DNA of 35,287 nt from an uncultured Alphaproteobacteria bacterium (GTDB taxonomy: Bacteria; Pseudomonadota; Alphaproteobacteria; Rs-D84): contig CASCZI010000009.1 of the NCBI GenBank assembly GCA_949156565.1, forward strand, positions 1-35,287. The letters are read 5' to 3'. Positions within the stretch are counted from its first letter, which is position 1; each line of letters starts with the position of its first letter. The notes beneath the pieces are model-generated. The model ran no database searches and had not been told where the DNA came from. It saw nothing but the letters and a program-made list of their open reading frames with translations. Of this stretch, positions 1 to 7,758 are shown in pieces. Position numbers and translations under genes: made by a program.

Positions 1-29
1 ACTATGCCTAATCCAAAGGGTGGTTTTCG
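1..29. repeat. Left-end dispersed palindromic repeat (partial)
   Basis: Bases 3-25 are the exact reverse complement of bases 35265-35287 at the other end of the window. Bases 13-29 also recur with one mismatch at 5631-5647. The same half-site forms a hairpin at the right end. This looks like a REP-like dispersed intergenic repeat at which the sequence was truncated. Seen directly; the dispersed nature in the genome is inferred. Confidence 0.7.
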
Positions 30-56
30 GATGGGAAAACAAGAAACGGGGGGATA

Positions 57-365
57 ATGTCACGTTTTATTTTTTGTTTGATCGCATTTTTGATGGTATG
101 TAATGCCCATGCGACCAAATACTGTGTTGTTAAATCGTGTAATGCCGGCTATTACGCCACATCATCCGTGACATCAGGTGCAACCGGCAAAGTGTATTAT
201 ACCAAGTGTGAACGTTGCCCGGGTTTGCCATCGGCATCGGGGGGCACCCAATATGGAACAACGTCTGTTGGGAAGAATATGCAATCGGCATGTACAATGC
301 CGGCGGGTGTTTCGTTAAAGGATAGTACGGGTACCTATACTTTTACCAGCAATTGTAAATATTAA
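57..365 (+). CDS. Small Cys-rich exported protein, unknown function
   Basis: A 102-residue protein with a clear N-terminal signal peptide: a hydrophobic run from about residue 4 to 17, then a likely cleavage after the NAHA stretch near residue 19. The mature part is rich in Gly, Ser, Thr and Tyr and has Cys residues in spaced CxxxC, CxxC and single positions, ending in an NCKY tail. The start has a purine-rich GGGGGG ribosome-binding site just upstream. The gene is followed after 14 bases by another Cys-rich gene, so the two are probably co-transcribed. No enzyme motif is visible. A disulphide-stabilised surface or periplasmic protein is likely by inference; the true function is unknown. Confidence 0.75.
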   Translation: MSRFIFCLIAFLMVCNAHATKYCVVKSCNAGYYATSSVTSGATGKVYYTKCERCPGLPSASGGTQYGTTSVGKNMQSACTMPAGVSLKDSTGTYTFTSNCKY

Positions 366-5137: not shown

Positions 5138-5608
5138 TTACCGGTCAATGTTAATGTAGTAATAGCGCAGATTATCCATTTCTTTGGCCCCATTGTGATG
5201 GGCAAAATTTTTTGCCGGGGTGTTATTTTCATCTTCCATAAAACCAATCACGGCACAATGTTGATCCCGGGCAATTTCTCTGACGGCATCCATTAATTTT
5301 GTCCCTATGCCCATTTTTTGATAGACGGGGTCGGTGAACATGTTGGTGACCCAGATGCAATTTCCTTCTGTCATGAAATAGACGGCGGAAAAGACAATCA
5401 TGCCCGCCGGTGCGCCGTCAATTTCGGCGATTAAAATTCGGGCATCCGATTGGGTTGTATTCGGAAAAAAATCTGATTTCAATCGACGGGCCAATGTGGT
5501 GTCTGCGCGGGTTAAATTTGATTTGTCATTTACAACGTTATTGGCATTAACCAGAAACGGGATATCATCGGGGCTTGCATCGCGAATAATGATATGTGGT
5601 GTCGTCAT
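5138..5608 (-). CDS. GNAT-family N-acetyltransferase
   Basis: A 156-residue protein with a GNAT fold: N-terminal IIIRDASPDDIPFL beta-alpha unit, a WVTNMFTDPVYQKMGIG segment with the acetyl-CoA pyrophosphate-binding Q-K-M-G-I-G motif, and a C-terminal FAHHNGAKEMDNLRYY strand pair. The substrate cannot be told from sequence. It converges on the M48 protease gene with only 8 bases between stops and no clear terminator there. No strong ribosome-binding site is visible ahead of the ATG. Confidence 0.88.
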   Translation of the reverse strand: MTTPHIIIRDASPDDIPFLVNANNVVNDKSNLTRADTTLARRLKSDFFPNTTQSDARILIAEIDGAPAGMIVFSAVYFMTEGNCIWVTNMFTDPVYQKMGIGTKLMDAVREIARDQHCAVIGFMEDENNTPAKNFAHHNGAKEMDNLRYYYINIDR

Positions 5609-5630
5609 GATGTATCTATATAAAAAAACG

Positions 5631-5647
5631 CCAAAGGGTGATTTTCG
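5631..5647. repeat. Partial copy of the window-end repeat
   Basis: These 17 bases match positions 13-29 at the left end with a single difference (A for G). They lie eight bases upstream of the duplicated tRNA-His 3' end at 5655. The match suggests that the end repeat is present in several degraded copies in this genome. Confidence 0.5.
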
Positions 5648-5654
5648 TTTAATG

Positions 5655-5674
5655 ATGGGGCGGGCGACCGGATT
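5655..5674. repeat. Duplicate of the tRNA-His 3' end (att-like direct repeat)
   Basis: Twenty bases identical to 5830-5849, the 3' end of the tRNA-His gene including its encoded CCA. The two copies are in direct orientation and bracket 155 bp. Such a duplication of a tRNA 3' terminus is the usual scar of site-specific integration into a tRNA gene. No integrase is present, so it would be a remnant; this origin is inferred. Confidence 0.65.
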
Positions 5675-5829
5675 GACATTCCTACCGCATTTACATGCGG
5701 CGGGGCCCTTTCCACTGCGTATATCTCGAACGGCGCTGAGGCTTGTTCTCGATAACTCCGTAGTCGAACCGGGCGGTTCTCATCACGGTTCCGCATACCC
5801 ATAAAAAAATGTCCCATGGACATATTTTT
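5675..5829. other. 155-bp structured insert between tRNA-His 3' end copies
   Basis: Non-coding, relatively GC-rich stretch held between the two copies of the tRNA-His 3' end. It contains two near-perfect inverted repeats, CCGCAT-4 bases-ATGCGG at 5685-5700 and GAACCG-GG-CGGTTC at 5766-5779, and it ends with the tRNA-His terminator. Open frames across it run into the tRNA gene and are not credible. It could be a relic of a small integrated element or a structured RNA transcribed downstream of tRNA-His. Confidence 0.5.
5802..5823 (-). terminator. Rho-independent terminator of tRNA-His
   Basis: On the minus strand, a 6-bp stem (ATGTCC/GGACAT, loop of three) just downstream of the tRNA CCA end is followed by a run of seven T. 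Confidence 0.75.
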
Positions 5830-5830
5830 A

Positions 5831-5908
5831 TGGGGCGGGCGACCGGATTCGAACCGGCGACAACCGGTACCACAAACCGGTGCTCTAACCAACTGAGCTA
5901 CGCCCGCC
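5831..5908 (-). tRNA. tRNA-His (anticodon GUG)
   Basis: Full cloverleaf on the minus strand, 78 nt including an encoded extra 5' G (G-1) and a genomic CCA. The acceptor stem GCGGGCG pairs perfectly with CGCCCGC. The anticodon loop is TTGTGGT with anticodon GTG, and the T-arm is GCCGG-TTCGAAT-CCGGT. G-1 faces a C discriminator (C73), the classical bacterial histidine identity element. Many alphaproteobacteria have lost G-1 and use A73, so this is informative for placement. Confidence 0.96.
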
Positions 5909-5922
5909 ATATGTTCGTCTAG

Positions 5923-5949
5923 TTTATAGGACAATTTGACATTTTGCAA
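5923..5949 (-). promoter_or_regulatory. Promoter of tRNA-His
   Basis: On the minus strand, TTGCAA at 5949-5944, a 15-base spacer and TATAAA at 5928-5923. The predicted start is about 8 bases before the mature tRNA 5' end. The same arrangement and spacing recur in front of the chimeric tRNA at 6854-6931, which supports the call. Confidence 0.6.
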
Positions 5950-5988
5950 GCATAAATTTCGTTCCCCATTGGTTGTTGGGGCAAAAAC

Positions 5989-6016
5989 TTGATTTTTATG
6001 ATTTTTCTTGTATAAA
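5989..6016 (+). promoter_or_regulatory. Promoter of the exported-protein gene at 6051
   Basis: TTGATT, a 16-base spacer and TATAAA, giving a start near 6023. An AAAGGG ribosome-binding site lies before ATG 6051. Sequence-pattern call only. Confidence 0.45.
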
Positions 6017-6050
6017 TGCATTATAAAGTTAATACAAAGGGTTTAATTTA

Positions 6051-6743
6051 ATGAACACAAAACATATGACATCTGCGGTTGTGTTAATGATATTTTTAAC
6101 ATTTGCCGCCATAACACACCAAAATAAACACAAACGTGCAACATCTTTCTATGCCAAAAATACAGAATGTTTAAGTGCACGTACCGTCCGTGTATTGACC
6201 ATGTTGGATTCATTACATCAATGTGATTTAAAGTTGGGGACACTGCAAACAAAAACATTTTTGGGCAATCAAAAATTAATAGACGATATTTTGATGACCC
6301 ATTTGACTGGGGCGCAACAAATGCGGGTACAATCGGTATTGCGTCAAATTTCCGCCCAGACCAAGATTGATCACAGCAATTATTTGTCCCAATGCAATTA
6401 TAGATCACCCACCTTGTTTATGAATTTATATCGGGGTGATGTTATGAAAAAATACATCAGTATAGCGGACGGGGATTCAGAAATTTTTGATATGATATCC
6501 ATGCAATATCAATCCCCCACGGTCCAGACAATACGTGCCGCCCATTTACGCGTTATGGGGGCGTTGGCGGGGGAATCGACCCGGTTATCTGCCGATCAAG
6601 GGTTATTGAAACGTGAACTGTACCAACGGGCGGGTATCGAACATGAATATGATGCCTTGGCACAAACCATGATGGAAAAATATATCGATGTGGAAAAACC
6701 GTTGACGATGATGCGATCAAAGAAACACGCCTTTATAAAATAA
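6051..6743 (+). CDS. Exported protein of unknown function
   Basis: A 230-residue protein with an N-terminal hydrophobic segment (about residues 8-21) that acts as a signal peptide or anchor. The mature part is helical, with Cys residues in an N-terminal pair and a QCNYRSP segment near 120. I recognise no family or catalytic motif. The gene stands alone with its own promoter and terminator, in the gap between tRNA-His and the chimeric tRNA. That position suggests it is accessory cargo of the tRNA hotspot. Confidence 0.7.
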   Translation: MNTKHMTSAVVLMIFLTFAAITHQNKHKRATSFYAKNTECLSARTVRVLTMLDSLHQCDLKLGTLQTKTFLGNQKLIDDILMTHLTGAQQMRVQSVLRQISAQTKIDHSNYLSQCNYRSPTLFMNLYRGDVMKKYISIADGDSEIFDMISMQYQSPTVQTIRAAHLRVMGALAGESTRLSADQGLLKRELYQRAGIEHEYDALAQTMMEKYIDVEKPLTMMRSKKHAFIK

Positions 6744-6745
6744 AA

Positions 6746-6778
6746 AATCGGGATTATTCCCGATTATTTATTTTTTTT
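6746..6778 (+). terminator. Rho-independent terminator of the 6051 gene
   Basis: Stem AATCGGG/CCCGATT (7 bp, loop of six) directly after the stop codon, followed by a T-rich tail ending in eight T. Confidence 0.85.
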
Positions 6779-6819
6779 GCATTGGGTGAATGCCGCCCCA
6801 GGGTTCATTCCACAATAAA

Positions 6820-6844
6820 TAAAAAAACCGTCCATTTGGACGGT
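6820..6844 (-). terminator. Terminator of the chimeric tRNA (copy of the tRNA-Ala terminator)
   Basis: Minus-strand stem ACCGTCC/GGACGGT with a 4-base loop and a T-run of seven. It is identical in stem and loop to the terminator of tRNA-Ala at 7845-7868. Confidence 0.75.
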
Positions 6845-6879
6845 ATCTAATTCTGGTGGAGCTGATCGGACTCGAACCG
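6820..6879. repeat. Direct repeat: tRNA-Ala 3' end plus terminator, copy 1
   Basis: Sixty bases that match 7844-7903 with a single internal difference (T6848 versus C7872). The repeat covers the terminator, the encoded CCA and the tRNA-Ala 3' arm up to the T-loop. Past 6879 the sequence switches to tRNA-His. The two copies are 1,024 bp apart and bracket the metallopeptidase-like gene. Confidence 0.85.
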
Positions 6880-6931
6880 GCGACAACCGGTACCACAAAC
6901 CGGTGCTCTAACCAACTGAGCTACGCCCGCC
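6854..6931 (-). pseudogene. Chimeric tRNA: tRNA-His 5' part fused to tRNA-Ala 3' part
   Basis: On the minus strand the 5' part, about 58 nt from G-1 to the T-loop, is identical to tRNA-His at 5831-5908, anticodon GTG included. From the T-loop onward it is identical to the 3' end of tRNA-Ala at 7878-7953, CCA included. The switch falls within an eight-base block shared by both tRNAs (6872-6879). The acceptor halves GCGGGCG and CAGCTCC cannot pair properly (three mismatches in seven), and the T-stem has a mismatch, so a functional tRNA is not expected. Both a His-type promoter and an Ala-type terminator are kept, so it may still be transcribed. Confidence 0.88.
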
Positions 6932-6945
6932 ATACATTGCCCCAG

Positions 6946-6972
6946 TGTATATGATGTTTCCCCAATTTGTAA
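6946..6972 (-). promoter_or_regulatory. Promoter of the chimeric tRNA
   Basis: Minus-strand TTACAA, 15-base spacer and TATACA, at exactly the same distance from the tRNA 5' end as the tRNA-His promoter. The sequences further upstream are also related, which indicates that the whole 5' region was duplicated from tRNA-His. Confidence 0.5.
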
Positions 6973-6990
6973 GCAGAAATTCCGGGCCGG

Positions 6991-7019
6991 TTGAATTTAT
7001 TCGAATTTTTTGGTATAAT
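6991..7019 (+). promoter_or_regulatory. Strong promoter producing a probably leaderless mRNA
   Basis: TTGAAT at 6991-6996, a 17-base spacer and a perfect TATAAT at 7014-7019. The predicted transcription start is 7026-7027, which coincides with ATG 7027. There is no room for a ribosome-binding site. Confidence 0.7.
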
Positions 7020-7026
7020 CCCAGGC

Positions 7027-7758
7027 ATGAAGATTGAATATGTGCCACTTAATGATGAACCGGACACCAACCCAGACCGGGATTATATCGTCGGGAAATA
7101 TTCGACATTTGACCCGGATCTAAGCCGCCAGGCCGCCGTGGCCAATCAGACCGAAAATCGTTCGGACAAAGTGGCTGCCCTGAATGCCGCCAATAAACGG
7201 GTGAATGCGGCCAAGGCAATGGCCCTGGGGAGGTATATTTTTGAAAGGTTTGAACAGGCACTGGCCCAGGTGTCTGAACTGGGGCGCATGTATGAAAACT
7301 TTGACCAATTAAGTTGGGATGAAAAGGTTGATTTTGCCCAATATTTAATCAACGAGGTCATCAACCGTATCGATTTGGTTGAAAAAAACGAATTGCCCGA
7401 AATCCGTGTGCGTTCCGGGCGGGATGCTAAAATTGCCGGCTTTCGGTTGGCACTGGGCAAGTTCCCGGAAATCATGTTGAATCCCGACATGCACAAGCCA
7501 GAGGGACGTTCTGATTCAAAATTGTCGCCCCGGTCTGATTTTATGGCGACGATAATTCATGAGTTTCAGCATGCCATTGATTTCATGGTGCCGCGGATGT
7601 CGGCTCTGGGGGCCCAGGTGGTGAATATAGCCTGGAAACAATACCAGGGTGTGGTAAAAAACGCCGCAACCGGCGAAGCGGACATCGCCTTGTACGAATT
7701 AAATCCATTGGAAATTATGGCCTATGGGTGGTTTGATAAATTTGGCGGGAAACAATAA
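7027..7758 (+). CDS. Metallopeptidase-like (zincin) protein, HEFQH motif
   Basis: A 243-residue protein without a signal peptide. A zinc-protease motif HEFQHAID lies at about 174-181 and is followed by ELNPLEIMAY near 227-236, whose Glu is well placed as third ligand. The N-terminal half is helical and charged. This resembles small cytosolic or delivered metallopeptidases seen in accessory and phage loci; the substrate is unknown. Base use differs from the neighbours, with CTG for Leu, AGG for Arg and many GCC codons, which hints at transfer. The start is set at ATG 7027 because upstream in-frame codons lie inside the promoter. It is framed by the chimeric tRNA and tRNA-Ala. Confidence 0.75.
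   Translation: MKIEYVPLNDEPDTNPDRDYIVGKYSTFDPDLSRQAAVANQTENRSDKVAALNAANKRVNAAKAMALGRYIFERFEQALAQVSELGRMYENFDQLSWDEKVDFAQYLINEVINRIDLVEKNELPEIRVRSGRDAKIAGFRLALGKFPEIMLNPDMHKPEGRSDSKLSPRSDFMATIIHEFQHAIDFMVPRMSALGAQVVNIAWKQYQGVVKNAATGEADIALYELNPLEIMAYGWFDKFGGKQ

Follow-up and report, generated by a model that had tools for sequence, protein, structure and literature searches.

The studied locus lies on the minus strand of a 35,287-nt stretch of DNA, referred to here as the window, from an uncultured gut alphaproteobacterium with a very small genome, of the order Rs-D84 (GenBank contig CASCZI010000009.1). Reading along the minus strand, we found tRNA-His to be followed by its terminator, a left strand, the P2 hairpin, a core, a tail and a T-rich trailer (Table 1). 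An exact direct repeat of 20 bp (5655-5674 and 5830-5849) enclosed an interval of 155 bp (5675-5829), as an earlier note on this DNA had described, and the unit had no room for a gene, in line with the remark in that note that the interval is too small for an integrase. In the sense of the tRNA, the downstream copy ran from A58 through CCA (19 nt), with one shared T. The two near-perfect inverted repeats that had been placed in the interval were both present. One of them is the terminator, whose arms (5798-5814 and 5818-5834) are 17 nt long and match at 94% in an inverted-repeat comparison, and only the other, P4 (5705-5681), is part of the structured core.

Table 1. Features of the tRNA-His locus and of its neighbourhood in the window.
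Feature	Position	Strand	Basis or remark
tRNA-His (GTG), intact	5831..5907	-	ARAGORN; Rfam RF00005, 68.2 bits, match 5907-5834
Intrinsic terminator of tRNA-His, 17-nt arms and T7	5798..5834	-	first bases overlap the CCCA end of the tRNA
Left strand (P1 5'), able to pair in part with the tail copy	5780..5794	-	single-sequence fold; tail pairing, own versus other, 109 units
Predicted P2 hairpin GAACCG/CGGTTC	5766..5779	-	sequence; T-stem match statistics; deduced from other units
Core between copies of tRNA positions 57 and 58	5675..5764	-	R1 match 5770-5670, 91.2 bits (the window is one of the model's own 11 sequences)
P3 stem with tandem G-A internal loop	5719..5756	-	covariation
P4 hairpin	5681..5705	-	covariation, weaker than for P3 (81.8% of cells paired, MAFFT alignment)
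Tail, exact copy of tRNA-His positions 58-76	5656..5674	-	sequence match
Second trailer, T7 run and weak hairpin	5618..5655	-	sequence
Chimeric tRNA-like gene: tRNA-His 5' part, tRNA-Ala 58-76 and Ala terminator	6854..6930	-	Rfam, 44 bits; sequence

Directly before the core, CCGGTTCG (5772-5765), which comprises the 3' arm of P2 plus a G, was found to copy the T-stem strand of the tRNA together with half of the T-loop, and because of this match the core was placed inside a T-loop, with copies of position 57 on one side and of position 58 on the other. In the minimum-energy fold of the window's own sequence, P1, P3 and P4 were formed and P2 was absent. Additionally, the second trailer, which follows the tail, was unlike the first trailer, which follows the tRNA (similarity of 0.40). 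Rfam at gathering score revealed only tRNA over the whole window, and at E<=10 no family overlapped 5656-5796 in the region 5500-7000; a match to SpF41 in the latter search was far under its cut-off and overlapped the tRNA and the terminator. The same database at gathering score gave only tRNA at 16 further unit loci, plus two tmRNA models at one of them (L258). At that locus, positions 1-238 (minus strand) hold an alphaproteobacterial tmRNA gene of the permuted type, approximately 1.7 kb from a unit lodged in a palindrome.

In DNA searches, similar sequences were found in relatives and downstream of other tRNAs. In the genome from which the window comes, which showed 46 tRNA-model matches, approximately 16 of 45 tRNA trailers were judged by eye to carry a unit or a remnant, with several core types. 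A stricter test for tails covered 44 tRNA loci (tRNA-Glu-TTC was set aside) and looked within 1 kb on the same strand; four loci had a 19/19 copy of their own tRNA 3' end, three more had a copy of 14-15/19, and two further loci matched neighbouring tRNA genes only. Because these exact and near copies recur in one genome, and because the tails in relatives match the local tRNA best, the repeat of the tRNA-His 3' end is not the chance similarity that had been considered as an alternative.

A covariance model of the unit core, R1, was built from 11 cores and found matches in 164 of the 201 genomes of the order (E<=0.01), distributed over 12 of its 23 genera, with eight matches in the window's own genome. 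In a class-wide sample, nine of 385 genomes had matches; four of these belong to the same genus as the window, and three of the other five belong to one family (f53), in which units are likewise linked to tRNA (L147 behind tRNA-Asn with an exact tail; also L145 and L148). The covariance search proposed in the earlier note thus yielded abundant homologues, but they were not confined to tRNA-His, as they stood behind tRNAs of 23 anticodons and at loci other than tRNA genes. Among at least 80 further loci, the titles of the records referred to uncultured Alphaproteobacteria from gut or faeces, to Azospirillum sp. CAG:239 and to Candidatus Enterousia intestinigallinarum; of the 80 listed, 79 were searched, with L183 left out. 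One of 105 R1 matches, L103, was dropped as the same unit as L042. PMC12306168 assigns Enterousia to Rs-D84, an uncultured order, and gives genome sizes of about 0.75-1.0 Mb. With blastn at E<=0.01, the unit (5656-5796) matched none of 50,697 phage records and none of 72,556 plasmid records, and a phage or plasmid origin was rejected on this basis; the P3 pattern also had no exact match in viral contigs. Literature searches with a few terms, conducted mostly outside the subscription journals, returned no description of the family.

To compare the ends of the units with the local tRNA, we used 149 distinct units, which were obtained after leaving out L304:923-995, L225 and L261 and then exact duplicates by core and tail; 139 of these had a complete tail and no less than 200 nt of upstream sequence. 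A tRNA 3' end lay within 100 nt of 92 units and at 100-450 nt from 17, so that 109 units lay downstream of a tRNA gene at a distance of up to 450 nt, and the remaining 30 had neither. The tail was exact over 19 nt to the local tRNA 3' end in 63 of the 109 units. An earlier set of 73 units, from which units without a tRNA within 300 nt, incomplete tails, exact duplicates, L133 and L044 had been left out, contained 44 exact tails. In this set, the unit's own tRNA scored above every tRNA of another anticodon in 64 of 73 units, with a mean tail score of 15.0 compared with 3.2, and the T-stem strand likewise tracked the own tRNA (2.79 of 4 compared with 1.73). The left strand followed the tail moderately, both in local alignment (own 5.85, foreign 5.02; own better in 50 of 73 units) and in predicted pairing energy (own -14.85, foreign -11.73 kcal/mol; the own tail pairing more stably than the others did on average in 85 of 109).

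Whereas the ends of the units followed the local tRNA, a core of approximately 90 bp was common to units behind different tRNAs. In particular, the cores behind tRNA-His and tRNA-Arg-TCT of one genome (G178) differed at a single position in 97 nt, and the left strands were dissimilar; the Arg tail was exact to its own tRNA, and the His tail had one change. Between genomes, identities reached 90% for Glu and Gly units and 93% for His and Met units.

Cores were also found in palindromes unrelated to tRNA. In a genome outside the order (G466), three near-identical cores (L142-L144) were located between the arms of a chromosomal palindrome, with a mismatch in one arm at L142; near-identical copies are thus present at more than one site of a genome here, as at the His and Arg loci of G178. 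The uninterrupted form of this palindrome was present in 59 copies with up to three mismatches, and the reversed-pattern control gave 0. Cores between the arms of other palindromes were observed at L258 (Azospirillum sp. CAG:239), L254, L212 and L239, where the palindrome was weak (-7.0 kcal/mol). These seven loci, which belong to the 30 of 139 units without a tRNA within 450 nt, were picked by eye from the flanks of 16 units; some of the rest had tRNA-like tails, and the remainder were left unclassed. For the seven orphans, the right-hand strings entered in the pairing-energy calculation had a single base duplicated at a position outside the arms. At tRNA loci, the left strand and the tail form the corresponding arms. 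As separate observations, the G466 genome belongs to another family, and the sequence of its very abundant palindrome is CATTGCCGGACTTGATCCGGCAATCC; the P3 hairpin alone is also dispersed (L045, L150 and L152, in G024 and G149), with no tRNA directly upstream, and in G149 it adjoins other palindromic repeats.

We regard the interval as probably one copy of a miniature non-autonomous mobile DNA element that targets palindrome loops, at a probability of about 0.58. A minimal non-autonomous element was one of the two origins suggested in the earlier note, and the presence of the core behind many tRNAs and at non-tRNA palindromes supports it. The core with P3 and P4 sits in the apical loop of a palindrome. 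Within the order, this palindrome is built mostly from the 3' end of the upstream tRNA: the left strand, the T-stem hairpin, the core between the copies of positions 57 and 58, and then positions 58-76 with CCA. The folded DNA may be the substrate that a recombinase, of the host or borrowed, recognises and moves. New units would enter beside the tRNA through recombination in the 19-nt tail, pushing older trailers outward, and the unit, apart from keeping the tRNA intact, would probably serve no function for it. A more far-reaching version, which we hold only tentatively, is a DNA-level insertion system directed by structure, in which a folded core of approximately 90 bp enters palindrome loops and, at tRNA genes, takes both of its ends from the tRNA that it joins, with heterogeneous arrays that grow beside these genes in a manner resembling integrons or CRISPR and an enzyme that is as yet unrecognised.

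The trailers allowed insertion to be compared with duplication. For 58 units with exact tails, we compared the trailer that follows the tRNA with the one that follows the tail; the two were unlike (<0.65) in 34, alike (>=0.8) in 20 and between these limits in four; the control comparison had a median of 0.49 and a 95th percentile of 0.69. Unlike trailers are as predicted by insertion beside the tRNA, and like trailers would also be given by plain tandem duplication. This bears on host-driven concerted evolution, in which an ancient tandem duplication of tRNA 3' ends and terminators was followed by gene conversion among resident units, which homogenised the cores and kept the tails similar to the tRNA, with no transposition. 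Consistent with such a history, besides the 20 units with like trailers, shared blocks stopped where homology stopped (GGTTCG and AATCC), and variants of P4 were common to different tRNAs within one genome (G083). However, different core types were found, by eye, behind tRNA-His in different species, unlike units were consecutive within one array (L036, L156), and a core was found in an unrelated palindrome outside the order. We judge concerted evolution to be unlikely.

To describe the fold, RNAalifold was applied to the 11 cores and predicted a pair of stems: P3, which contains a tandem G-A loop, and P4. In the MAFFT alignment, on which RNAalifold had itself proposed the structure, 8 of 17 pairs were changed on both sides, with 21 such cells compared with 4.9 in shuffles. 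In an alignment of 100 distinct rows (A3), 97.3% of cells paired, and 277 cells were changed on both sides compared with 81 for shuffles and 8-23 for slid structures; this alignment was fitted to the structure, so the count of 277 leans towards it. The stems of the units contained 25 G-U and 13 A-C among 1,587 cells, whereas the stem pairs of 77 distinct tRNAs from the same loci, a set without tRNA-His and without tRNAs whose length or end was unusual, contained 78 G-U and 11 A-C among 1,129. This contrast gave a Fisher P of 0.006, or 0.0005 without one G-U-rich pair, in rows that are related sequences and against tRNA G-U pairs that can be selected. In the 72 strongest rows, the contrast was weaker (16 G-U to 7 A-C, P=0.053). 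A fold that is kept in DNA gives no reason for preferring G-U over A-C, and for this reason the pair counts point, with caution, to a unit that folds as DNA.

The other origin suggested in the earlier note was a structured RNA processed from the tRNA-His transcript. In E. coli, rtT (RF00391) consists of repeat units of approximately 175 bp behind tyrT, each with approximately 19 nt of the tRNA 3' end, and the unit studied here resembles it in being a repeat unit behind a tRNA that contains the tRNA 3' end. An RNA freed from the tRNA transcript by tRNA-processing enzymes, as with the rtT repeats, would agree with this layout, with the position of the unit on the strand of the tRNA, with a tail ending in CCA and with the strong covariation. 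On the other hand, the unit lies behind a terminator-like hairpin, the family extends over 23 anticodons and to loci outside tRNA genes, its G-U pairs are few, with no excess such as that in tRNA stems, and the RtT covariance model gave 0 matches in the window's own genome at E<=10 in a search that detects the E. coli repeats. We consider a released RNA improbable.

To look for an enzyme that could move the units, 39 members of the genus were searched with protein family models. Tyrosine recombinase (PF00589) was present in all 39, and exactly two matches were found in 17 genomes, some of them incomplete; judging from the scores, most of these pairs are probably XerC and XerD. Reverse transcriptase (RVT_1, PF00078) was found in 17 of 39 members and not in the window's own genome. 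Y1 transposase (PF01797) was found in one of 39 and was absent from the same genome, and IS110 transposase (PF02371) was found in none of 39, with matches in 4 of 14 control genomes. None of the four families tracked the units as a helper would. XerC/XerD or enzymes of passing elements are possible movers. The least probable explanation is the attL/attR scar of a small integrative element, left by a tyrosine recombinase acting at tRNA 3' ends, which the earlier note had seen as classic: the exact repeat of the tRNA 3' end, the arrays with the same tail and a tyrosine recombinase gene near tRNA-Gly (C8:2395; tRNA at C8:3029) fit it, but the genomes with exactly two PF00589 matches include G010, G017 and G158 with 8, 12 and 5 R1 matches, one core carries the ends of different tRNAs, the unit cannot hold a dedicated integrase gene, and the reading is incomplete because an att site leaves the same core in unrelated palindromes unexplained.

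The miniature mobile element favoured here shares features with several known systems. Integron attC sites and cassettes are folded DNA of approximately 100 nt in arrays of unlike units that share an end sequence; both traits have counterparts in the present units, and inspection of the unit by eye did not reveal the attC core motifs GTTRRRY/RYYYAAC. REPINs of REP-RAYT systems are short, hairpin-forming and non-autonomous repeats, as our units appear to be, but 38 of 39 members of the genus have no Y1 transposase. Rickettsia palindromic elements are also short hairpin-forming repeats of small-genome Alphaproteobacteria, and they differ in being known mainly from within protein-coding genes. 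The present family differs from rtT in that it uses many tRNAs, has a core common to them and also occupies non-tRNA palindromes. The copy number of rtT varies, being described in PMC2658671 as a 175-bp VNTR. The insertion sequences IS1397, ISKpn1, IS621 and ISPsy8 insert within chromosomal REP palindromes, with ISPsy8 entering a predicted hairpin on its axis of symmetry, according to the account in PMC1525189. Insertion within a chromosomal palindrome is what we propose for the core; in contrast, the elements described there are full insertion sequences with a transposase, which the core lacks, and the main site of the core is a palindrome derived from tRNA. From this comparison, the closest parallels appear to be the REP-targeting insertion sequences and, for layout, rtT, and the ends that track the tRNA are the part for which we know of no ready precedent.

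Mobile DNA in bacteria very often integrates at the 3' ends of tRNA genes. Here, a compact family that is present in most of the searched genomes of an order with genomes of approximately 1 Mb makes the local tRNA 3' end its own end and also lies in ordinary palindromes. Such a family allows one to ask how structure, rather than sequence, may define a target and which enzyme can read it. For annotation, the units mimic attL/attR pairs and tRNA fragments.

Some units were separated from a tRNA by other DNA. One of them (L149, G000:C3:55405-55498) had a tail resembling tRNA-Arg-ACG, lying 36 kb from that tRNA gene (C3:91396) on the same strand, and was possibly displaced from it by a large island. 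The orphan units L136, L172, L091, L156 and L149 were located beyond apparently inserted DNA carrying a partial tail, and islands may have displaced them from their tRNAs. Additionally, at L136, L172, L160 and L091 (upstream of a further unit), stretches of a single gene or a few genes lay between pieces of tRNA 3' ends, several with GTTCG motifs near their ends; they resemble small cargo islands located at tRNA genes.

Elsewhere in the window and outside the unit, the chimeric tRNA-like gene (6930-6854) was located between tRNA-Ala (7953-7878) and tRNA-His. Its junction lies in the T-loop, which suggests recombination at T-loops between unlike tRNAs. Two ORFs on the plus strand between the tRNAs, 6051-6743 and 6991-7758, had no Pfam match, and an HEFQH motif was seen by eye in the latter.
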